A stretch of DNA of 64,000 nucleotides from Ahniella affigens (lineage in GTDB: Bacteria > Pseudomonadota > Gammaproteobacteria > Xanthomonadales > Ahniellaceae). Below are positions 37,273 through 48,670 of the stretch, one piece after another (within the stretch, counting starts at the first letter, position 1; the number at the start of each line of letters is the position of its first letter). The position numbers and the translations under genes were made by a program. The notes below the pieces were generated by a model. It did not search any database, had not been told where the DNA came from, and saw only the letters and a program-made list of their open reading frames with translations. The stretch is taken from NCBI RefSeq assembly GCF_003015185.1, contig NZ_CP027860.1, forward strand, positions 1,240,001 to 1,304,000, given 5' to 3'.

Positions 37273-39789
37273 TTAGTGATACAGCGATTGATTTTGGGGT
37301 ACGGCAAGCAGCTCGGGCTGCTCTGTGTAACACAGGGCCGTTCTTGCCTCGGCACATAAAGCAGAGAACGTCCCCATGGGGATGGCGCATGCTGTGTCCT
37401 GAGTAAACGCCCCGACCGGGTCGTCCGCACAAGGTAGTCGCCAGTATGCGTGGTTGAGCCATGCCAGATAGTCCGGGCGCAACGACGTATCGGCACCGGT
37501 CTTGGTCATCTTGGGCGGTCTGATCGATGTCAGAATCGTCATCGAACTTCGAAAGTCGCGTTGCCGACCGAGGTACTTGGCATACTCGACCGCTACAAAC
37601 TTGTGGAATTCTCGCAGGTCATCTCGGTCTGCACGCGTCAGCAAATCCTCGAATCGCTGCCGCACCACGGCAGGATCTTGTTTCGCCGCGGCGAGTGACA
37701 TGACAAGGTTGATTTCCATACGCATGCTGCTGCGGTGATTCCGGCCAAACTCGTTCGAGAAGCTGCGAAAGGCGCGTTCGTGAAAGACTACTGCTTCGTT
37801 GTCTCGGCGCTGCTTTGATAGTGCGATACCAATCAGCGACGCGATGCCGCCGACGACCAGCGAGTCTTCGCCGTATTTGGGCCGCAACATTTCGAGGATG
37901 GCCTTGCCCTCGTCAACCAAGACCTTGTCGCCATTTGCGGCGGCAATCGTCTTCAATCGGACCAATTCCAAGCGCGTCAGATTCGGATGGTCTGCAGGGA
38001 GTGCCTTGCGCGCCGTCGCGAGCGCCGTTCGGAGCCCCGCAAGTGCTTGGCCCAGATCATTCTGCTGGGCGAGATTCAACGATATCAAGCGCTGCAACTC
38101 GATCCAGAGCGGATGGTCCGGGCTGGTGCTTGCCAACAGTGGCTTCAGTATTTTCACTGCATCGGCGTACTTGCCGCTGCGCGACGCAATGCGGGCGCGC
38201 AGCCATGCCGAGCGAACCTGGTCCGATGCCGGCAAATGCTCACACGTATCGAGCTGCTTTGCCGCTGCTGTCAATTGGTGGTGTTCGACTTCGATCTGCA
38301 CGGAAAGCAGACACAAGCGTGAGTCTGTTTCACGGGCCGCTGGGTCAATCCTGGCCATCATATTGTCTGCGTCCTGCATCAGTCCGAGCGACAACTGGAC
38401 TTCGATCAAGGTGACCGCCAAGTCTTGAAACGCGCTGTCATGCTGATCGATCAATGGTCCCAGTGACTGGGCAGAACGCTCGAGCACTTGGCGCGCCGTG
38501 AGGTCACCGCCCAATTCGCCAGTCGGGTCGGCGCCCTCGAATGCCTGCTTCATTGTATTGAGTGCGAGATTGGCGCGGTCGCGCTCACCGAGGATCACTT
38601 GATACTGATTCCAGGCAACGGCCAACCCGACCAGCGTCGCGAGAAAACTCAGTCCTGCAAAACCGCTGGCGAGACGGTTTCGGGACAAGAATTTCTGGAG
38701 GCGGTAGAGCGCTGTGTTGTCTGTGACAGAGACCGGCTCGTTCGCCAGCAGGCGCACCAGATCAGCGTCGAACTGCTCCACGCTGCCGTATCGGCGTTCT
38801 GGTTCCTTTCGGAGGGCCTTCGCCACGATACGTTCCAGATCGGCTGGAATGTCTCGCTTCTGATGGTTGGTCTTGCCTTGCGTCCGCATGGGCGCTGGTG
38901 GGACGCTCAGGACCAGGCTTTCAAATTCGCCGGGTGTCTTGCCTTCCGGATCAAAGATCGGACGGCCGGAAATCAGTTCGTATAACAGAATGCCCAGTGC
39001 ATACACATCAGTCGCAGCCCCGCAGGGCAAGCCGCGGATTTGCTCGGGTGCGGCACTGAGCGGCGTATACATGCGATCACTGGTCATCGTGTGCCGATCG
39101 TTGTCGGCGATGAGTTTGGCGATGCCAAAGTCGAGCAACTTGACCACACCATCGGGCCGCACCATTACATTGGCCGACTTGATGTCGCGATGAATGATCA
39201 GCTGTTGATGGGCATAGCTGACCGCGGCGAGCAATTGTCGGAACAGCCCGATCCTGGCGCGCGTGCCGAGCCCCAGCTGATCGGCGTAGGCGAGCAAGGG
39301 CTGGCCTTCCACCAATTCCATGACGACGTAGGTGTTGCCATCTTCATCTGTTCCGGTGTCGATGAAATGGGCAATGCCTGGGTGGCTGAGCCGCGCGAGA
39401 ATCTGGCGCTCGACCCGAAAGCGATCTTCCGAAGGTGTGCTGAACAAGCCCTTGCGCATGACCTTCAGGGCAACCCACTGTTCCGTATCGTCGACGCGCC
39501 GCGCGCGATAGACCTGGCCCATCCCGCCTTCGCCAATTGCCTCGAACAGCACATACTTGCCCATGCGGCGACCGGCCGTCAGCGCCTGGTTTTCGGACTC
39601 AGCAAGCAGTTGCAGTGGCTGCTGCGTTTGCAACTTGGCCTGGCTGCCATAGCCCAGCAGTCGGATCACTTCGTTGGCCGTAGCCTCGTCTTCGGCCGCC
39701 GAGCGCACAAACTGAACGCGCTCCGCTTCTGGATAGTCGAGCGCGGCGTCGAAGAGCTCACGCACCCGGGCATAGCGATTACTCTGCAT
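37273..39789 (-). CDS. Transmembrane Ser/Thr protein kinase with TPR-like C-terminal region, ECF-linked (second)
   Basis: 838 residues from ATG 39789, overlapping the end of the sigma factor gene by 11 bases. Kinase motifs: IGEGGMGQV (85-93), Lys109 in ALK, HRDIKSAN (Asp202) and DFG (Asp220). One membrane helix is at ~372-391. The rest is helical with TPR-like repeats (AKQLDTCEHLPASDQVRSAWLRARIASRSGKYADAVKIL; RDNEAVVFHERAF), presumably periplasmic. Same layout as the kinase at 26-29 kb but clearly diverged, so the two operons are old paralogues rather than a recent duplication. Confidence 0.9.
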   Translation of the reverse strand: MQSNRYARVRELFDAALDYPEAERVQFVRSAAEDEATANEVIRLLGYGSQAKLQTQQPLQLLAESENQALTAGRRMGKYVLFEAIGEGGMGQVYRARRVDDTEQWVALKVMRKGLFSTPSEDRFRVERQILARLSHPGIAHFIDTGTDEDGNTYVVMELVEGQPLLAYADQLGLGTRARIGLFRQLLAAVSYAHQQLIIHRDIKSANVMVRPDGVVKLLDFGIAKLIADNDRHTMTSDRMYTPLSAAPEQIRGLPCGAATDVYALGILLYELISGRPIFDPEGKTPGEFESLVLSVPPAPMRTQGKTNHQKRDIPADLERIVAKALRKEPERRYGSVEQFDADLVRLLANEPVSVTDNTALYRLQKFLSRNRLASGFAGLSFLATLVGLAVAWNQYQVILGERDRANLALNTMKQAFEGADPTGELGGDLTARQVLERSAQSLGPLIDQHDSAFQDLAVTLIEVQLSLGLMQDADNMMARIDPAARETDSRLCLLSVQIEVEHHQLTAAAKQLDTCEHLPASDQVRSAWLRARIASRSGKYADAVKILKPLLASTSPDHPLWIELQRLISLNLAQQNDLGQALAGLRTALATARKALPADHPNLTRLELVRLKTIAAANGDKVLVDEGKAILEMLRPKYGEDSLVVGGIASLIGIALSKQRRDNEAVVFHERAFRSFSNEFGRNHRSSMRMEINLVMSLAAAKQDPAVVRQRFEDLLTRADRDDLREFHKFVAVEYAKYLGRQRDFRSSMTILTSIRPPKMTKTGADTSLRPDYLAWLNHAYWRLPCADDPVGAFTQDTACAIPMGTFSALCAEARTALCYTEQPELLAVPQNQSLYH

Positions 39790-40375
39790 GCTTGATGCCT
39801 GCCTCGTCGAGTTCGCTGGCGAGCCAGTGGCGGGCGAATCGCCAGTGGCGCCCAACAGTCGCGACGGAAGAACTGCACACGTCAGCAATCTGCTCGGCTG
39901 TCATGGGTGTGAAGAGTTTCATTTCGACGACGCGGGCGCATTCCGGGTCCATGGCCGCGAGTCGATCCAAGGCGGCATCCAAAGCGATCCAATCGATTGC
40001 CTGGTTGCCGTCGGAGGCTGCTTCATTCTCAGCCATGCTGTGCACGTCGACCATGATCTTGCCGCCACCGCGCTTGTCCGCGTAGCGTTCGCGAAGGTAG
40101 TCAATGACCACCCGCCGCACGACCGTCGCGGCAATCGCAAAGAAGTGCTCGCGATTCTTCCAATCCACGCTGTACTGCTCGCGGAGCTTGATGTACGCGT
40201 CTTGGGCCAGGTCGGTGGCGCTCAGCGTCACCTCATGCCCGTGCTTTCGAAGTTGCGACTGCGCCACTTGCCGGAGAATGGGATAAATCGCCTTGGCCAG
40301 GGCGCTCTCTGCTTGGCGGTCGCCAGAGCGCCATTGCACCAACAAAGATGTGATTGCGACGGCTTCGATGCTCAT
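39779..40375 (-). CDS. ECF sigma factor, kinase-linked type (second)
   Basis: 198 residues from ATG 40375; longer in-frame starts up to 40762 add a low-complexity leader with no conservation. Region 2 (TLSATDLAQDAYIKL, then EHFFAIAATVVRRVVIDYLRERYADKRGG) and region 4 (ECARVVEMKLFTPMTAEQIADVCSSSVATVGRHW) are clear. The region 2.2 position reads SATD (52-55): one acid is kept beside Thr54. No anti-sigma gene. It leads a three-gene operon (sigma, kinase, secreted protein) with overlapping or near-adjacent genes. Confidence 0.87.
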   Translation of the reverse strand: MSIEAVAITSLLVQWRSGDRQAESALAKAIYPILRQVAQSQLRKHGHEVTLSATDLAQDAYIKLREQYSVDWKNREHFFAIAATVVRRVVIDYLRERYADKRGGGKIMVDVHSMAENEAASDGNQAIDWIALDAALDRLAAMDPECARVVEMKLFTPMTAEQIADVCSSSVATVGRHWRFARHWLASELDEAGIKHAE

Positions 40376-41398: not shown

Positions 41399-41935
41399 TC
41401 AGCTAGGCTTGCTTTCGCGGACGCTGCATTCGCGCTGGAATCGCCTCCAGGCATAGTCGAAGCTCAGGTCAGGATAGCGTTCGATGACGAGGGCCAGATC
41501 CGTGTAGTTGGCGCCGAACGCTTTGCAGAAGCTTGACACCGCGTGGTCTGAGAAATCAACGCGTTTGCGCCTCAGGGCCTGGCGAATTTTCTCTTGCGGT
41601 TGGTCAAGGTCAATGACCATCATTCGGCACAAAGGCGCCAACAGTCGATGGAGCCGAATCGGCCAGTGACTTGCGATCAGCAACGGGCGTGCGTGGCGCA
41701 TGGCATCGATAAAGCGCGGCAGATCGCGGAGGTCGTACAGTTCCTCGATCACATCAAGGTCTGCACGCGTTTCACGAAATGCGGCGTGGCGCTCAATCAT
41801 GAATCGAATCGCGCTGCTCTTGCCCGCACCGCTGCGCCCACAAAACACGACGCCACGATTACGGCCGAGGGGCAACGATGCCAAACCCAGAACGTCATCA
41901 AATGGCGGTGATTCAGTCCTCATGGGGCACGTCAT
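41399..41935 (-). CDS. Small P-loop NTPase-like protein
   Basis: 178 residues from ATG 41935, which overlaps the stop of the upstream membrane-protein gene as ATGA; ATG 41923 is also possible. Walker A is GRSGAGKSS (33-41, Lys39). Later motifs include PLLIASHWPIRLHRLLAPLCRMMVIDLDQP, where MMVIDLD could be a Walker B strand. Residues DLDVIEELYDLRDLPRFIDAMRHARP resemble the 'search in an ATPase for its bound target' part of small AAA-like proteins, without a family match. Coupled translation suggests that it works with the membrane protein. Confidence 0.72.
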   Translation of the reverse strand: MTCPMRTESPPFDDVLGLASLPLGRNRGVVFCGRSGAGKSSAIRFMIERHAAFRETRADLDVIEELYDLRDLPRFIDAMRHARPLLIASHWPIRLHRLLAPLCRMMVIDLDQPQEKIRQALRRKRVDFSDHAVSSFCKAFGANYTDLALVIERYPDLSFDYAWRRFQRECSVRESKPS

Positions 41936-43035
41936 TCCGGTTCGTTGCGATAGAACTCGCGCCAATCGATGCCAGCAGCTTTGCCCTTCAGTTCTTGATC
42001 GACGAATAGCGGGTGGAGCAACTGCACTTCCCAATCCACAGCCAGACCATGACTGCTGCTTGCGTCGATGGGTGGATACAGGCAATCGAACATTGGCGTG
42101 AAATCAACGTAGCCTTGCACATAGTGCTGTAGCGGCATGCGTGCTGGGACGTACGGGATAAACTGTTCGAAGAGAATCACGCCGTGTTTTGGCGTACTGA
42201 ATGAAATGGTGCGCTCCTTGGTGCCCGAGCCCCGTTTGTATTGGCCCTTTTCAAGATTGACCGCCACCACTCGGATGGTGATCTTCTCCAACGGCACGCG
42301 CGATACGCCTTCCAGCATGTCACCGATCGAGACGGTTAGTCCGCGGTAGGGCAGCTGTTGGCCATCTTTCATCTTGATGTGCATGTAGCGACGCAGTTGG
42401 GCTCGGATGATGAGCCAGAGCGTGACACTCAGACCACCGCTGCCCGCCAGAGATTTCATGATGGGTGACTCTGACCCATCGGAACCATGGTGATCGTAGA
42501 ACACCGTGGCTGCCTCCGGGACAAGCTCATCATGGACGCCAATAGCGGCATTGACCAACGCGAGCAAACCGCCGATGACGAGCAGGCCCAGCACGAGGAT
42601 CTTGTTTCGCAGCGGAATGGCCGCGATGTTGGCACCGAGACTGTAATGATCCTTGGGTTCGATCAAATCGTTGCTGGCGGGGCTGTGGGCCGCCGTGCGT
42701 GGCAGTTCGGGCAGCTCGATTTCGGCATCGGCGGTGGTGTCGAACAACACCCCATCGTCGACTTCCAGACGCGCCATCAGGCGAATCGACACATCATCGC
42801 CTCGGTAGGCGAACCGCGGCTCAATCGTTTCAGGCAAGGGCAGTTCCAGGGTGGTTCCCTGCACGGTGAAGTCGTGTCGCGACAGCTCCTGGTAGTAATG
42901 GATGCCGCGCGAATCGTGCACATAGACCTGTCGGAGTAATTTGAACACAGCCTGATGGCCGACCGCCGCACTCGGCATGTCGTCAATGAACACGCGCTCT
43001 TCGCCAGAGGGAGTTCGGTCGATGCGTGCACGCAT
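41932..43035 (-). CDS. Membrane protein with arrestin-like N-terminal domain (tentative)
   Basis: 367 residues from ATG 43035; the frame is open to 43095. Residues 1-115 are a predicted beta-sandwich (SRHDFTVQGTTLELPLP, YRGDDVSIRLMARLEVDDGVLFDTT) reminiscent of arrestin/Spo0M-like proteins, a weak likeness. Two hydrophobic helices follow at ~146-166 (KILVLGLLVIGGLLALVNAAIG) and ~197-213. The C-terminal ~150 residues are soluble (RYMHIKMKDGQQLPYRGLTVSIGDMLEGVSRVPLEKITIRVVAVNLEKG). Function unknown. Encoded between the anti-sigma factor and the P-loop protein on one strand; a 253-base gap with a tandem repeat separates it from the anti-sigma gene. Confidence 0.7.
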   Translation of the reverse strand: MRARIDRTPSGEERVFIDDMPSAAVGHQAVFKLLRQVYVHDSRGIHYYQELSRHDFTVQGTTLELPLPETIEPRFAYRGDDVSIRLMARLEVDDGVLFDTTADAEIELPELPRTAAHSPASNDLIEPKDHYSLGANIAAIPLRNKILVLGLLVIGGLLALVNAAIGVHDELVPEAATVFYDHHGSDGSESPIMKSLAGSGGLSVTLWLIIRAQLRRYMHIKMKDGQQLPYRGLTVSIGDMLEGVSRVPLEKITIRVVAVNLEKGQYKRGSGTKERTISFSTPKHGVILFEQFIPYVPARMPLQHYVQGYVDFTPMFDCLYPPIDASSSHGLAVDWEVQLLHPLFVDQELKGKAAGIDWREFYRNEPE

Positions 43036-43120
43036 GGGTAGGGTCCTCTTTGCCGGGCTGTGCGGGCTGGCGTGACGATACCAATTCCCTGCCATCGTGG
43101 GAGAGGTTCCGGTGGTTGTC

Positions 43121-43144
43121 CACTCAAAATCGCACTCAAAATCG
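43121..43144. promoter_or_regulatory. Perfect 12-bp tandem direct repeat upstream of the membrane-protein gene
   Basis: cactcaaaatcg occurs twice head to tail (43121-43132, 43133-43144), 86-110 bases upstream of the start at 43035. Direct repeats of this size and position often bind regulators; this role is inferred. Confidence 0.4.
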
Positions 43145-43244
43145 TATAGGTTCGTGCGGCATGGGCCATGGTGCGCTTTTGCCCATGTCTATGCCGTGGC
43201 GAGTCGCGGCCAGCTCCGTTCGGGTACGTCCGGATTTGCGGTAG

Positions 43245-43275
43245 CGGGACCAGGATGGACTGGTTCAGACGCTCC
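43245..43275 (+). repeat. Small dispersed hairpin, copy 3 (partial)
   Basis: gggaccaggatggactggttcagacgctccc matches the loop and right arm of copies 1 and 2; the left arm is eroded. It lies just downstream of the anti-sigma gene stop. Confidence 0.6.
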
Positions 43276-43288
43276 CAGAATGCCGTCA

Positions 43289-43894
43289 CTACTGGGGCGG
43301 GCGGAGCTCGAACTGCCGACGGTCGACTTGGTGGCCATCTGACTCGATCTCGAGCTGCCACGTTCCGGGAATCTGTTGTCGGGCTTGCAGCAGAAGCCGC
43401 ACAAGGCCTTGCGTATCAGGTCTGGCGTGTTGTTCAGGCAGCGCATGCCCATCCGGGGCGATCAAGCGCACGCGCACCGGATCGTCGTATCGGATCGGCA
43501 ATTCGAGCACGATCGCCTGCTCGCTGGTGTTTGCTTCCGGTAGGCGCGGTTCGCCGCGAACCTGATCGACGTATAGCCCGGCCAAGGTTGCGGGCGCCGA
43601 GCCATCGGCATTGTTGCGGTTCAGGATTGTGCCAAGCCCTATGCCGATCGCGAGGCTGGCCGCAAGCGCCATCGGCATACTGAGCCGTTCGACAAAGCGG
43701 GTGGCACGGCTGGCCCGGCGCGCGGGGACATGGCGCAGGCCTTGTTGCAGCGCGATTTCCACCTCAAGTGCATCCATTAACTCGGGTTGGTCGACCATTT
43801 CCAGCTCAAATACTTCCCGCTCGCGTTCGGTCAGGCGGCCGCGAACGTAGTCTTGTGCGCGCTGTTGCGCGAGGCTATTGGCTGAAGTGGTCAT
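43289..43894 (-). CDS. Membrane-anchored anti-sigma factor (putative)
   Basis: 201 residues from ATG 43894, overlapping the sigma factor stop (ATGA). Residues 1-65 are soluble and helical (AQDYVRGRLTEREREVFELEMVDQPEL, LMDALEVEIALQQGL), the usual length of the sigma-binding domain, but without the HxxxCxxC zinc motif. One membrane helix lies at ~72-91 (MPMALAASLAIGIGLGTIL). A ~110-residue extracytoplasmic domain follows (GLYVDQVRGEPRLPEANTSEQAIVLELPI...GTWQLEIES). Layout and coupling to an ECF gene support the anti-sigma call; direct homology was not checked. Confidence 0.78.
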   Translation of the reverse strand: MTTSANSLAQQRAQDYVRGRLTEREREVFELEMVDQPELMDALEVEIALQQGLRHVPARRASRATRFVERLSMPMALAASLAIGIGLGTILNRNNADGSAPATLAGLYVDQVRGEPRLPEANTSEQAIVLELPIRYDDPVRVRLIAPDGHALPEQHARPDTQGLVRLLLQARQQIPGTWQLEIESDGHQVDRRQFELRPPQ

Positions 43895-44463
43895 TGTGGC
43901 CAGCCCCATCGGGTCAGCAGCTCACGGAGTCGGCTGCGGGCCCGATACAGCGCGTTGTCGAACTGCGAAGGCTTCATTCGGTATCGTAGCAACAAGGTCT
44001 CCTTGTCAATCTGATGCAGGTAGTAGTCGCGCAGGATGTCCTGGTCGCGCGTCTGCTCCAGACTGTCAATCAGCGTTCGCACAATTTGGCTGAGTTGATC
44101 AGATTCGGCTTGTGCCTGGGGGTTCTCCGCTGGGCCTGCTGGCAGCAGATCGGGTTCCGATTCAAGCGACACCGCTCCGGTCTCGTCGCCGTGGCGGGCG
44201 CTATCCCGGCGGCGGTTCGCAAGGACATAGCGCGCGGTCGAAAACACATAGGCCTTGAGTTTTTCGGAATCCCGAAGCGGCGCTTCACGCAGCTTACGGA
44301 TGACCGTGCTGAGCGTGTCTTGCGTCAAGTCCTCGGCGCTGTGCCAGTCGGACCAGTTCGCGCGGAAGAACAGGAGCAGAGGCCGCTGAAACCGAGCGGC
44401 CAGCACCGCTTCGAATTCCTTGGCGACGGGTGTCGGCGCCGCATCGGGACTTGAATCGAACAT
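43891..44463 (-). CDS. ECF sigma factor (CHAT cluster)
   Basis: 190 residues if ATG 44463 is used; ATG 44502 and 44535 are in frame and no start has a good ribosome site. Region 2 includes RANWSDWHSAEDLTQDTLSTVIRKL with an acidic AED core, and ARYVLANRRRDSARH. Region 4 includes DILRDYYLHQIDKETLLLRYRMKPSQFDNALYRARSRL. It is thus a conventional sigma factor that would need an anti-sigma for control, in contrast with the two kinase-linked ones. Followed by its overlapping anti-sigma gene. Confidence 0.83.
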   Translation of the reverse strand: MFDSSPDAAPTPVAKEFEAVLAARFQRPLLLFFRANWSDWHSAEDLTQDTLSTVIRKLREAPLRDSEKLKAYVFSTARYVLANRRRDSARHGDETGAVSLESEPDLLPAGPAENPQAQAESDQLSQIVRTLIDSLEQTRDQDILRDYYLHQIDKETLLLRYRMKPSQFDNALYRARSRLRELLTRWGWPQ

Positions 44464-44844
44464 CAAATTCAACCCGATGTATTCAAGATCGGCACTATGC
44501 ATGATGGCGTGAACTCCATCGATGCGGGCAAGCATGGCACGAACGTGGTTGCCCTCGGTAGTTGGACTCGAAGATGTGTATTGCTGCGCTGGTGACCCTG
44601 CATCTCGGTTGCATCCGCCGCTTCTCCATCCTGTCTTCTATCGCGTTGCACTGGGTTGATCAAGCGTTGGCGTTGAACGCCAGGCGCACCGGACCTGGCA
44701 ACCTTCGACCACACTTCGACATCGCTACCGCCGAGCCCCAGACTGCTGGTTCATTCAGGCCATCCTCATGGCCCAAATATCAGTTCCGACCTGGCGCAGC
44801 GCGTCTGACCGGTCCGGCTCGTCCAAGCAGTGTCCTGAACAGGT
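44464..44844. other. Intergenic region between CHAT gene and its sigma factor gene
   Basis: 381 bases, probably with the sigma factor promoter. It contains an odd perfect palindrome tggcgtt-g-aacgcca (44668-44682), about 205 bases upstream of the ATG, which could be a regulator site. The short plus-strand frame across it has no coding character. Confidence 0.5.
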
Positions 44845-47800
44845 TTATTCTCTCAGGCTGGCAGTCGCTGATTCCGAGGCAGCCAGTTCGACCAAGACGT
44901 AGCCTGCCCATTCCCTGAGCAACCGGCGGCCGAAACGCGCAGCAAAGCCGGTTTGGGTTCGGGACAGGGCCTCTGCTGGCTGATCCGGGGATTTTTCGAG
45001 CTCTTCGTAGAACCGCACGGCGAACCGTTCGGCGGCCACGTCAGGAACATCCCAGGCATTGATGATTGCTGCCTTCACACCGGGTCTTGCGATGAGATCG
45101 AGCAAACCCAGTCCGCCCATCCCCGAATGCCCGCCGCAGGCATTCAGAAACACCAATTTTGGCGGTGTTTTGTATGCGTCCAGCCGTTCTGGGCCAAACA
45201 GGTTCGTGTTGCCGCTCCGCGCCAACGATACCGCTTGCGCCAAGTCATTCTGGTCAATCACGTGGTGCCCGGGCACTTGCAGAATCCAGGCGCCAGACTG
45301 CTGACTGGCAACTAAGTCATCTTGAATCGGCAAATCTGGCAGCACACGCGCGACAGCGCGTCGCTCGGGATCAACCTGTTCCCCCTGGAACGATGGCCAA
45401 CCTAGCCGAAGCGGGCTGAGCGCCAGCTCATCTGGTTCGCTACCGGTCCATGCCTGCAGATATCGAATGCTACGGCCCTCGACCAGTAGTTCGCCTTGCG
45501 CATCGCCAAGCAGCCCAAGCCATGGCAAGGCCAGCATTTCCGGATCGAACACCAGCAGATTGCGCGCGGCTGCCAGCGCTTGCCGCAAGTCTTCAAGCTG
45601 CTCATCCAAGTCGGACCAGAGCCCGAGTTTGTCTGGGGTCTCTCGAATGCGCGCCTGCCAGTCCCGGATTGTGGACGCCGACGGCAACGTCAGCGCGCGC
45701 CGACCCGTTTGGTCGCGGATCAACACGTACACCTGATCTTCACCCGGCAGCAACCAAATCCGCGTGACATCATCCGAACCGGTTGTCTTCTGACCAACCG
45801 GCAGATTCATCGCAGCGGTCGGATTCGCGGGCGCTTCGGCGTTCCCAAGCAAATCCATCTGTTGCTCCAGCCAACTGATCCGCTTCTGCAACGCGGCGCG
45901 AGACGCGTCGTTTTGTTCTGGATCTCGCAGTACGAGCAGCTTTGCGCGCCATTCTGCCAATAGCGCCGCGGCTTCACGGTCGAGCCGATCGGTTCGATTG
46001 CGCCACTGATTCACGCGGCTCCAATAGGTAGTCAATGGCGTGAGGGATTGCTCATTGGGGATTTCGGAATCGGCGCGATCAGCGAGCAGCCAGTCTGTCC
46101 ACGTGCTCAGAATTTCGACCGAGTTCGCGGCCTGCATCCGGCGATGCCGTTGACTCAACGGTTGCGCCAGTGCTCGGACCGAGAGACCGGCCGCATTTGT
46201 CAGCGCCTTGGTCGCGCCCAAGCTGTCACCAATGTCCTTGAGCAGCACCGCAATCAGATACTCGTTCTCAGTTTGTTCGGCAATTCGACCAAGTGTGAGG
46301 TTGAGTGCTGAAGCCGCTTGCGCATGTTTGAGAGCGGTTTTGGGATGGCTTGCTCGGTGCAATCGGCTGAGCGCCGCGAGCGCGTCAGCCTTGGTCGTCA
46401 GGAAGCCATTTGACTCTGCCAATCGCAATGCCTCTTTGGCGGTCTTTACGGCAAGATCAAGGCGATTCAGCGACAGCGCCTTCTGGCTGATCGCCAGCAG
46501 TGTTTCGGCCAACGGTTCGGGTTGCCTAGTCAGACGCCACTGCCGCTCCGCTTTCTGCAGCAGGGTCAATGCATCTTCGGCGGGCGAAATGCTGGCCTGG
46601 AGTACCCAGGCCAATGCCTCTGTACGCGGGTTGGGCGTCTTCTTCGTCATTTCCAGCAAATCCTGCGCATAGCGCCTCAGGGCAGCCGTGTCCCCGGCTT
46701 GCTGGTACAGGTCGGCCTTGATCAGCATGATGTTGGCAAGCAAGTCGGGTTCGCCTGACGATTCGGCCCGCGATTGCGCGTCACTGATCGATTTAAGCGC
46801 TGCTTGCAACGCACCGCTGCGGGATTGGGCGCGCGATAGATTCATCAGCGCTTTTGCCATACCCTTTGAATCCCCTGCTTTTTGATATATGTCAGTGGAC
46901 TCCTTAAGGTTCTTGATGGCCAAGTCGGATTCGCCCAGGGCGATGGCTGTTGCGCCCAGATTCAGCAGTGGCTCGGCAACGTGGGTGACGAGGCCTTCTG
47001 CCCAGTACTCCTTGATGACACGTTGAAAACACGCCTTAGCCTCAGTCACGGCTCCATCATGAATGAGGATCAGGCACAGATTATTGGCGGCCGAGGCCGC
47101 CTCGTACCTGTTCGCTGATGCCAGAGCAAGCGTGCGTGCTTGATCGAAGTGTGCCCGGGCCAGCTCAAACTCCTGCATTTCCCGGTAGGTCAGCCCCAAC
47201 CCATTCTCGATGACTGCGCGCCAGCTGTCATCGGTACAGACGGCAGTAGCCTCTTTGTACGCAACAATGGCCTCGCTGTGGCGTTTCAGCCGCCTCGCTA
47301 AGGCCGCCTCACTGGCTCGGACTGGGCATTCCAGCGCTAACTGCGGTGGCCATGTAGCCTTCAGGCCAAGGGCTCTTCGGATTTTCTTCAGCGCATGCTC
47401 CCAACCTCTGGCGCTGCCCGAGCTATTGGCCTGATGCGCCTCCTCGATTGCGGCGAGACCCGCCAGCTCCCGTCGCGTGACCGGCAGACTAATGATTCTT
47501 AGGCGCCACGGATTCTTTTCTGCGGTCTTCCGTGCAACCTGAATGGTCTCCGGCACGTCGGCCAGAACGAGTTCCGGCCCATTGCGACCGCTTGGAGCAT
47601 TTTGCCTGTTCAGTCGATTGTTGCGACTGACGACGACGTCTGCGCCAATTTGCTCAAGAATCAGAACATGGGGCCCCGCGCCTCCGATCCATTGAATGTC
47701 GAGGTTGCTCTCGTCGGCGCCAAGGTCAAACGTGAGTTCTTGGCCAGGCCGGACTTCCAATACCCGGGACTCGACTGCCGCGGCAGCCGTTGCGCCGCCG

Positions 47801-47862
47801 ACGAGGAGCCATAGGGTGATCAGTTTGTGAACCACGGCTTCAAGTTTTGATTGCAAGCACAT
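44845..47862 (-). CDS. Exported TPR-CHAT (caspase-like) protein
   Basis: 1005 residues from ATG 47862, with a signal peptide (VVHKLITLWLLVGGATAAAA). Residues ~25-110 are a small beta-domain; ~180-620 are helical TPR-like repeats (GLGLTYREMQEFELARAHFDQA, LLNLGATAIALGESDLAIKNLKES, AKALMNLSRAQSRSGALQAAL). The last ~350 are a CHAT domain: ILQVPGHHVIDQNDLAQAV supplies the likely catalytic His and VFLNACGGHSG the Cys, ending with INAWDVPDVAAERFAVRFYEEL. CHAT proteases are caspase relatives; TPR-CHAT of type III-E CRISPR cuts a sigma-factor inhibitor. Here the signal peptide places it outside the cytoplasm, on the side where the anti-sigma domain would lie. Confidence 0.87.
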   Translation of the reverse strand: MCLQSKLEAVVHKLITLWLLVGGATAAAAVESRVLEVRPGQELTFDLGADESNLDIQWIGGAGPHVLILEQIGADVVVSRNNRLNRQNAPSGRNGPELVLADVPETIQVARKTAEKNPWRLRIISLPVTRRELAGLAAIEEAHQANSSGSARGWEHALKKIRRALGLKATWPPQLALECPVRASEAALARRLKRHSEAIVAYKEATAVCTDDSWRAVIENGLGLTYREMQEFELARAHFDQARTLALASANRYEAASAANNLCLILIHDGAVTEAKACFQRVIKEYWAEGLVTHVAEPLLNLGATAIALGESDLAIKNLKESTDIYQKAGDSKGMAKALMNLSRAQSRSGALQAALKSISDAQSRAESSGEPDLLANIMLIKADLYQQAGDTAALRRYAQDLLEMTKKTPNPRTEALAWVLQASISPAEDALTLLQKAERQWRLTRQPEPLAETLLAISQKALSLNRLDLAVKTAKEALRLAESNGFLTTKADALAALSRLHRASHPKTALKHAQAASALNLTLGRIAEQTENEYLIAVLLKDIGDSLGATKALTNAAGLSVRALAQPLSQRHRRMQAANSVEILSTWTDWLLADRADSEIPNEQSLTPLTTYWSRVNQWRNRTDRLDREAAALLAEWRAKLLVLRDPEQNDASRAALQKRISWLEQQMDLLGNAEAPANPTAAMNLPVGQKTTGSDDVTRIWLLPGEDQVYVLIRDQTGRRALTLPSASTIRDWQARIRETPDKLGLWSDLDEQLEDLRQALAAARNLLVFDPEMLALPWLGLLGDAQGELLVEGRSIRYLQAWTGSEPDELALSPLRLGWPSFQGEQVDPERRAVARVLPDLPIQDDLVASQQSGAWILQVPGHHVIDQNDLAQAVSLARSGNTNLFGPERLDAYKTPPKLVFLNACGGHSGMGGLGLLDLIARPGVKAAIINAWDVPDVAAERFAVRFYEELEKSPDQPAEALSRTQTGFAARFGRRLLREWAGYVLVELAASESATASLRE

Positions 47863-48670
47863 CTGAGAGAACACCTTCCCAAGTGACACCAGTACATGCG
47901 CAGGGCAACGAGTGCGCTCTGGCACCGCCCATCAACGGGAACCCTTGCGTGCGCGTGTCAGCTTTGCGCGCGCAAACGGGCGTCGTTGCTCGACGATTCG
48001 AGAATAGCAGGCCAAATGGAACAACGCTGAGCGTCATTCTTGGCCCGGCCTGACGCGCCAAGAACAGCGCAAATGTCGCGTTGACAGATTCTGATTGGTG
48101 GAGGTCCTCCGGCAGTCTCTCTGCCACTTCGTTGAGCCCACTGTGGCGGCCTAGATTCAGGCAGAGCCCAGTGTCTGAATGCATTCGGACCCCATACTTG
48201 GCCGGGGCAGGCGCTCTGGCGGACTGATTGCAAGGCTGAAAGCCCAGGATGGACGTGTTGGTTCCCTCACGATCCATAAGCCCGAAGAATCGGATCACGA
48301 TCAATAACATTGTGGCGGGTGTGAGGAGGTCTCCCTAAGCGACACTGACGTGAGCAAACAATGGCAGGACCAAAATGGCGTGGGAGATCGATTACGGGCA
48401 ACAACGTCGGGGGAACGCGTTCCGCCCTGGCGTGGTCTTGCGAACGAGCAGCATGCGCAAGGCAGCATCGCTGGCAGAATTGCCGACCGATGCCCGCGCG
48501 TGCGTGGGCTACGCACATGCCAATGCTTTGTGGCATTGGCGTCGGACGCGGCGCGCATCGTCAGGACCGATTGCGGGCTCGGGCACACACATCCTGGTTC
48601 CGTCGAACCAGCACACGATTGCCAGAATGCGATCTGATTGCGGCCGTGAGTGGCCTCTCTGCAGGGCGAC
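47863..48670. other. 808-base region upstream of CHAT gene with palindromes; no supported gene
   Basis: Frames exist on both strands but overlap each other and lack conserved features. The best, ATG 48375 to 48683 on the plus strand, ends inside the start of the next gene and has fair codon use, so a small gene is possible. Structures: perfect palindrome tttgcgcgcgcaaa (47963-47976), about 100 bases upstream of the CHAT start, and hairpin gccaatgc-tttgtg-gcattggc (48519-48540). Confidence 0.5.
48235..48262 (+). repeat. Small dispersed hairpin, copy 4 (diverged)
   Basis: ggctgaaagcccaggatgga followed by cgtgttggttccctcac aligns base by base with the loop and flanks of copies 1 and 2, though the stem has decayed. 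Confidence 0.55.

Follow-up and report, generated by a model that had tools for sequence, protein, structure and literature searches.

A 64,000-nucleotide stretch of the Ahniella affigens genome (contig NZ_CP027860.1, positions 1,240,001 to 1,304,000; hereafter the window) carries three minus-strand genes for a TPR-CHAT protein, an extracytoplasmic function (ECF) sigma factor and an anti-sigma-like membrane protein. We think that these probably form a CRISPR-free three-gene module in which the exported CHAT protein serves as a periplasmic site-1 protease and cuts the anti-sigma after Arg118. The computed support consists of a conserved linkage of the genes, a pattern of export and membrane topology, an intact catalytic dyad in the CHAT protein, and an invariant Arg between the membrane helix and the outer domain of the anti-sigma.

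The CHAT gene (47862..44845) comes first, followed by the sigma gene (44535..43891) and the anti-sigma-like gene (43909..43289), with the last two frames sharing 19 bases. A first-pass annotation of this DNA had described these three genes, and they are borne out by the open reading frames, by matches to PF12770 and PF04542, and by AlphaFold2 (AF2) models built from window and related-locus sequences only. The gap of about 380 bases that it placed between CHAT and sigma is shorter, at 309 bases to the longest sigma frame or 342 to an ATG at 44502. The features are as follows, with the predicted local distance difference test (pLDDT) and predicted TM-score (pTM) given where they apply.

44845..47862, minus strand: TPR-CHAT protein, predicted to be exported, 1005 aa from the ATG at 47862 (PF12770 E 6.9e-14, TPR_12 2.6e-17; AF2 pLDDT 80.7, pTM 0.78)
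47776..47862, minus strand: putative signal peptide, residues ~1–29 (read by eye; AF2 helix 4–21; family trend by heuristic)
47482..47772, minus strand: N-terminal beta domain, residues 31–127 (DSSP of the AF2 model; block pLDDT 42–82)
45841..47475, minus strand: TPR superhelix, residues 130–674 (Pfam match, AF2 model, VIA matches)
44887..45768, minus strand: CHAT region, residues 699–992 (Pfam, AF2; matches to DdvA, Craspase/Csx29 and separase)
45265..45267, minus strand: codon of His866, predicted catalytic (invariant, 48/48)
45136..45138, minus strand: codon of Cys909, predicted catalytic (invariant, 48/48)
45040..45042, minus strand: codon of Asp941 in a W-x-V-x-D motif common with separase, putative part of an Arg pocket (invariant, 48/48)
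43891..44535, minus strand: ECF sigma factor, 214 aa from the longest open reading frame, ATG at 44502 also possible (PF04542 7e-6)
43289..43909, minus strand: zinc-less single-pass anti-sigma-like protein, 206 aa (family alignments A2 and A4; AF2)
43733..43888, minus strand: helical anti-sigma domain, residues 8–59, with invariant Glu35 (alignment; AF2 blocks 11–60, pLDDT 88–97)
43607..43678, minus strand: membrane helix, residues 78–101 (hydropathy; low-pLDDT helix in AF2)
43553..43570, minus strand: candidate cleavage motif V-D-Q-V-R118-G, residues 114–119 (Arg in 84/84 rows, 68/68 non-redundant)
43295..43516, minus strand: outer beta-sandwich domain, residues 132–205 (AF2 blocks 131–200, pLDDT 85–95)

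The anti-sigma family is highly divergent, and yet it conserves Arg118, an outer residue to which the first-pass annotation had paid no attention. In 24 anti-sigmas with a mean column identity of 25%, Glu35 and Arg118 are the sole invariant columns, and the same pair is again invariant in 58 sequences (18% identity) and in 84 rows, which include loci fetched twice. After dropping rows shorter than 150 aa or more than 60% identical, 68 non-redundant sequences remain; all 68 have Arg118, while the next-best outer residue, Gly182, reaches 0.81. The residue that follows, at P1', is small (Ser 37, Gly 25, Ala 4, Thr 1, with a single Asp), so that Ser, Gly, Ala or Thr occupies 67 of the 68 positions. 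P4 is Asp or Glu in 38 of 68, against a background of 12.8%, and P5 is hydrophobic in 63, giving a family context of hydrophobic-[D/E]-x-x-R-[S/G]. Three class-sample members beyond the first set also retain R-[S/G], two of them with Ala at P4. The Arg lies mostly 14–42 residues past the predicted membrane helix and, in the AF2 model of the window protein, outside the folded domains. This topology and Arg analysis covers 60 proteins of 62 anti-sigma loci, with L112 (gene caller) and L107 (frame longer than 320 aa) left out; among those included, L146_3 (110 aa) is doubtful as a member, and its aligned Arg is not trustworthy. Alignment A4 holds the window protein and 57 of 58 eligible anti-sigmas, and alignment A5 holds the window CHAT and 47 of 50 eligible CHATs.

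Separase, the CHAT relative found in eukaryotes, cleaves at a motif that the context of Arg118 resembles. That motif is given as (D/E)xxR (PMC4626109) or as [D/E/S]PhiExxR with an invariant P1 Arg (PMC12609080). The window protein reads DQVR at this position and so matches [D/E]xxR by sequence alone. In a separase model, the P1 Arg is bound by a conserved Asp that lies close to where a helix begins (PMC4626109). In the window CHAT, Asp941 opens helix 941–957 of the AF2 model, and a profile of the family W-x-V-x-D segment finds separase as its best PDB match (GTLWDVTDRD, E 0.0039).

The CHAT protein has both the domain and the His/Cys pair of peptidase family PF12770. His866 sits in GHH (865–867) and Cys909 in NACGG (907–911), the very pair that had been read from the sequence at first pass, in a fold that matches Csx29 and separase. 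The first-pass check on whether these two residues form a catalytic pair thus also came out in favour. Besides Met1, the residues invariant in 48 aligned sigma-linked CHATs are His866, Leu903, Cys909, Trp937, Asp941 and Tyr952. Searched against the PDB, the CHAT sequence profile matches DdvA first (5.9e-9), with TPR-CHAT/Csx29 and separase also matched; the catalytic segment of the window protein, searched against the PDB as a single sequence, gave no match. Foldseek with the window model likewise places DdvA first by E-value and Craspase/Csx29 and separase high, at TM-scores of 0.2–0.4. VIA returns Csx29 (Z ~22) and yeast separase (Z 18.7), both covering the CHAT part, with plain TPR proteins ranking above them and DdvA not among the 50 matches listed. 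A strict signal-peptide heuristic is passed by 28 of 55 CHATs and by none of 66 sigma factors, and several of the CHATs that fail begin with a plain hydrophobic stretch by eye. Export of the CHAT and an outer domain on the anti-sigma thus look like traits of the family.

The dyad is kept more strictly in sigma-linked than in unlinked CHATs. In the relatives, all 43 sigma-linked CHATs counted (23/23 with this anti-sigma family, 8/8 linked to a kinase and 12/12 with a second anti-sigma group described below) retain both His and Cys, against 19 of 29 unlinked ones (Fisher 3.7e-5, a value that, like the others here, overstates independence because the sequences are related). The 29 count two alignment gaps as misses; without them the ratio is 19/27 (p 2.4e-4). 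Locus L089 was set aside as not truly linked, its CHAT being on the other strand with the dyad lost, and counting it as linked gives 43/44 versus 19/27 (p 0.0014). All 78 PF12770 places of the relatives were fetched, five of which the CHAT profile missed (L216 and L219–L222). At L216 an ECF/kinase pair lies 4.8 kb off on the opposite strand, and the CHAT keeps its Cys while its His did not align. None of the other four has an ECF gene nearby, and none showed both residues; adding these four brings the unlinked count to 19/33. As a separate observation, seven unlinked TPR-CHATs (L209, L211, L213, L217, L218, L220 and L221) have lost both His and Cys and carry Pro at the His position, and are probably a pseudo-protease group.

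The linkage of the three genes is itself conserved. When 84,980 species genomes were scanned for a single sigma motif, HF[DN]RVL[YF]RA, 66 loci came back, some overlapping with the set of relatives, from Lysobacterales, Alteromonadales, other Gammaproteobacteria and Acidobacteriota; the neighbourhood check proposed at first pass therefore came out in favour of a conserved trio. Custom profiles find all three genes in 55 of these loci, sigma and anti-sigma in 7 and sigma alone in 4; with the trio complete in 55 of 66 loci that had been picked by the sigma motif, the arrangement is not due to chance. Among the seven, L108, L130 and L151 show a partial TPR-CHAT at the contig end, the contigs of L144, L145 and L147 end before the CHAT position, and the anti-sigma of L146 is only a doubtful fragment. 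Among the four, the contig of L142 ends at the sigma gene, and no recognisable anti-sigma was found beside sigma in L105, L150 (which has a membrane protein of another look) and L152, so that anti-sigma and CHAT are missing together in these three. The A. affigens genome itself carries a second, diverged trio at C1:2.66 Mb (L050).

Across 61 genomes of Lysobacterales relatives, A. affigens included, sigma relatives occur in 30 and PF12770 in 29, often adjoining. Searched with the full-length window CHAT, the 60 genomes other than that of A. affigens gave no relative at E <= 1e-20, and sigma, anti-sigma and PF12770 were used as anchors for that reason. A class sample of 276 genomes, drawn without the sigma motif and searched with the anti-sigma profile, gave five full-length matches (E < 1e-20) in four genomes: two in A. 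affigens and one each in G185 (the same record as L100), G207 and G284. All five lie within 6 kb of a PF12770 match, a family present in 43 of the 276 genomes. None of 20 weaker matches, mostly to the N-terminal part, is within 6 kb of a CHAT (nearest ~11 kb, in G179).

The idea that CHAT genes in general are linked to sigma factors was rejected. The class sample holds 89 PF12770 places outside A. affigens, of which 40 were read together with three trio loci, several of them cut by contig ends. An ECF gene is present in 3 of the 39 new regions outside the order in which the profile finds the CHAT, or in 6 of 42 with the trio loci. Of the 73 CHATs in the relatives, 29 lack an ECF gene within 6 kb, some of these being located at contig ends.

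The sigma factor has regions sigma2 and sigma4 only, as ECF factors do, with a conserved sigma4 stretch in the family alignment; the ECF model TIGR02937 scores 40.4 bits over residues 63–207, just below its cut-off of 42.9. The anti-sigma-like protein combines a helical domain with one membrane helix, encoded by a gene adjoining sigma, as in membrane anti-sigmas, the side of the membrane being inferred. Its N-terminus is placed inside on the strength of the anti-sigma domain and an Arg-rich stretch before the membrane helix. The helix at 78–101 is followed by 105 residues in the AF2 model, where a single helix and ~110 outer residues had been proposed at first pass, and from the helix to about residue 131 the model shows coil and a single short strand. 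The protein matched no Pfam family at cut-off. Weak profile matches were PDB 3hug_B (E 0.0043), which we take to be the anti-sigma RslA, and RsrA (0.51), amid unrelated chains of similar E-value. The protein contains no Cys and does not belong with the zinc-type anti-sigmas (ZAS, zf-HC2, His-x3-Cys-x2-Cys); a zf-HC2 match at E up to 0.1 occurs in 7 of 58 family members, the best at 3.7e-5. Foldseek with the anti-sigma model returned generic beta folds only, Ig/MG-like for the outer domain.

A juxtamembrane Arg recurs in a second group of partners. Twelve ECF/CHAT loci of the relatives carry another membrane protein, mostly with a zinc-type anti-sigma domain, whose profile finds DdvA as its first PDB match (0.0048). 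When 11 of these were aligned without a hint (alignment A8, which omits L072, a near copy of L071), the juxtamembrane Arg was the sole invariant column, at 11/11. The motif [DE]xxR[SGATN] within 45 residues of the membrane helix occurs in 8 of the 12, a set that contains three pairs of close relatives, and in 3 of 26 controls (Fisher 0.001). Only the [DE]xxR test had been fixed in advance; a looser motif was picked after the second group had been seen. The controls began as 32 proteins (17 weaker matches to the anti-sigma profile and 15 of 21 zf-HC2 places, not all surely anti-sigmas); six had no clear membrane helix and were dropped, and none of the controls is within 6 kb of a PF12770 place. 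A further CHAT/ECF arrangement, with a membrane Ser/Thr-kinase-like partner, was seen at L085, L087, L176, L189, L191, L194, L196 and L197; extension of the Arg motif to these partners was rejected (2/8, p 0.33).

From these observations we propose the following sequence of events. The anti-sigma would hold the ECF sigma factor at the membrane through its cytoplasmic helical domain until some signal reaches the exported TPR-CHAT in the periplasm. The separase-like His866/Cys909 centre would then cut the anti-sigma linker after Arg118, that is, after hydrophobic-[D/E]-x-x-R and before Ser or Gly. Loss of the outer domain would expose the membrane stub to RseP-like and cytoplasmic proteases, and sigma would be freed. 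The genome encodes a PF02163 (M50, RseP-type) protease (E 3.6e-65).

Several points weigh against cleavage of the anti-sigma by the CHAT. The DdvA match of Foldseek has low TM-scores (0.22–0.25), the signal-peptide heuristic is passed by only about half of the CHATs, and the shared Asp is kept in 26 of 29 CHATs without a sigma gene. P4 is acidic in only a little over half of the non-redundant anti-sigmas, and plain R[SGA] is common in the controls too (12/26, versus 11/12 in the second group). The kinase-type partners show no enrichment of the Arg motif, and the relatedness of the sequences inflates the Fisher values. The linker is not proven to be disordered, because residues 61–130, membrane helix included, are modelled at a pLDDT of 56–66. 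Finally, the invariant Arg also fits binding without cutting.

This last point leads to an alternative that we regard as unlikely, in which Arg118 is a docking or pseudosubstrate contact: the CHAT binds the linker but leaves it uncut, and a signal is sensed through a conformational change of the complex, which acts as a split form of DdvA. A binding contact would also leave one invariant Arg, and DdvA joins anti-sigma and CHAT in one polypeptide, so that coupling without release is possible. Set against this, the dyad is intact in every counted sigma-linked CHAT, against 19 of 29 to 19 of 33 unlinked ones, and catalysis therefore seems to be needed; the small P1' residue, too, suits a scissile bond. 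Somewhat less probable again is that another, trypsin-like periplasmic protease cuts at Arg118, with the CHAT acting upstream or as a member of the regulon. Trypsin-like and astacin-like genes do occur in trio clusters, but a CHAT accompanies most of the sigma-motif loci, and the P5/P4 preference is separase-like and not tryptic. That the CHAT is a mere output gene of sigma, for example in envelope defence and with no role in activation, is improbable. In favour of it, the order and orientation of the CHAT gene vary among loci, with convergent pairs, and many clusters also hold a haem peroxidase-type gene; but this reading leaves unexplained both the juxtamembrane invariant Arg of two anti-sigma groups and the DdvA fusion. 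Autoproteolysis by an N-to-O shift was set aside on chemical grounds, P1' being often Gly.

Cleavage of the anti-sigma by a separate exported CHAT would extend a connection between CHAT and ECF factors that is already known from DdvA, from the ECF54 context and from Csx29/Csx30/CASP-sigma. The module is closest in composition to DdvA/DdvS of Myxococcus xanthus (PDB 8rot, 8rw5, 8rlz), where a membrane anti-sigma of an ECF factor has a CHAT region. DdvA is one fused protein with a zinc-type domain, whereas the window encodes the anti-sigma and the CHAT as separate genes, the former zinc-less and with an outer beta domain of its own. DdvS turns active once DdvA is inactivated, by an unknown signal (PMC4374960). 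In type III-E CRISPR, Csx29 is a TPR-CHAT protease that cleaves the sigma-factor inhibitor Csx30, in a system with CASP-sigma, and is triggered by target RNA via Cas7-11 (PMC10028731). The window CHAT has a fold similar to that of Csx29; Craspase CHAT has Ser where the window family has its invariant Asp. Csx30 is cut at a non-Arg bond. The caspase-like sigma-release module imagined at first pass by analogy with this system gains from the linkage, the dyad, the export pattern and the candidate site, while type III-E CRISPR turns out not to be its sole closest relative, given DdvA.

The hallmarks of a type III-E CASP system (Cas7-11, Csx30 and a CRISPR array) were not found in the part of the window searched. 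No Cas family exceeded the cut-off among six neighbourhood proteins in Pfam/NCBIfam-type models, no close direct repeats were found in window 36–54 kb, and PADLOC returned a generic TPR model only. Separase shares with the module the CHAT-type fold, the [D/E]xxR motif and the W-x-V-x-D segment, and differs in acting on cohesin, with no sigma factor. RseA, for its part, is cut at site 1 by DegS and then processed by RseP and ClpXP (PMC10028731); a site-1 cut of a membrane anti-sigma is what we propose here, with a different site-1 enzyme, the DegS/RseA/RseP pathway having no CHAT. For the ECF54 sigma group, CHAT genes in the genetic context, without an anti-sigma, and regulation by proteolysis have been described or proposed (PMC8999054), and one of the two sources cited there for this context surveys actinobacteria. 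Our literature searches, which did not include the DdvA structure paper or the main ECF classification, found no description of an exported CHAT that is a protein of its own beside a membrane anti-sigma with an invariant Arg site, and cleavage by the CHAT or release of sigma was not found for this module in the papers searched.

Other genes accompany the trio. A haem-peroxidase-type family is represented by 25 proteins of at least 250 aa, spread over 25 of the 66 loci; its genes sit next to those of the anti-sigma and the CHAT or between them, often together with a small uncharacterised gene (for example L101:9424-10689, L097:9370-10833 and L050:10383-11630); the three proteins tested, two of the family and that of L050, gave matches to animal haem peroxidase PF03098, a hint of an oxidative output. 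Protease genes were also found in trio clusters, three of them trypsin-like and one astacin-like (L122:5535-6278, L056:8345-9280, just below the Pfam cut-off, L068:10011-10679 and L057:11306-12001). In the window, the gene directly downstream of the anti-sigma (41932..43041, minus strand) encodes a protein of 369 aa that has one predicted membrane helix and matches nothing in Pfam or NCBIfam. About 3 kb downstream of the trio, a TIGR02999-type ECF sigma and a TPR Ser/Thr kinase occupy 37273..40369 (minus strand). A promoter and terminator scan of 43000–48400 gave no signal above shuffles, and a consensus scan of the same region found no minus-strand terminator-like site in the CHAT-sigma gap.

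To our knowledge, it is largely open how ECF anti-sigmas other than those of the RseA and RsiW paradigms are inactivated, and we know of few substrates of bacterial CHAT proteases outside CRISPR. The locus described here names a candidate enzyme, its candidate substrate and the exact candidate bond together, and by the same reasoning a substrate can be predicted for dozens of other CHATs linked to sigma genes in Gammaproteobacteria and Acidobacteriota. The module also suggests how the fused DdvA might work. If our reading is correct, envelope signalling in bacteria would include an enzyme/site pair of the separase kind. More tentatively, and at somewhat less than even chances, CHAT proteases may be dedicated periplasmic site-1 proteases for many ECF sigmas, acting on at least two anti-sigma architectures through a separase-like [D/E]xxR cut. 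Should that broader role hold, the pairing of separase with its site would be a bacterial invention older than its use on eukaryotic chromosomes.

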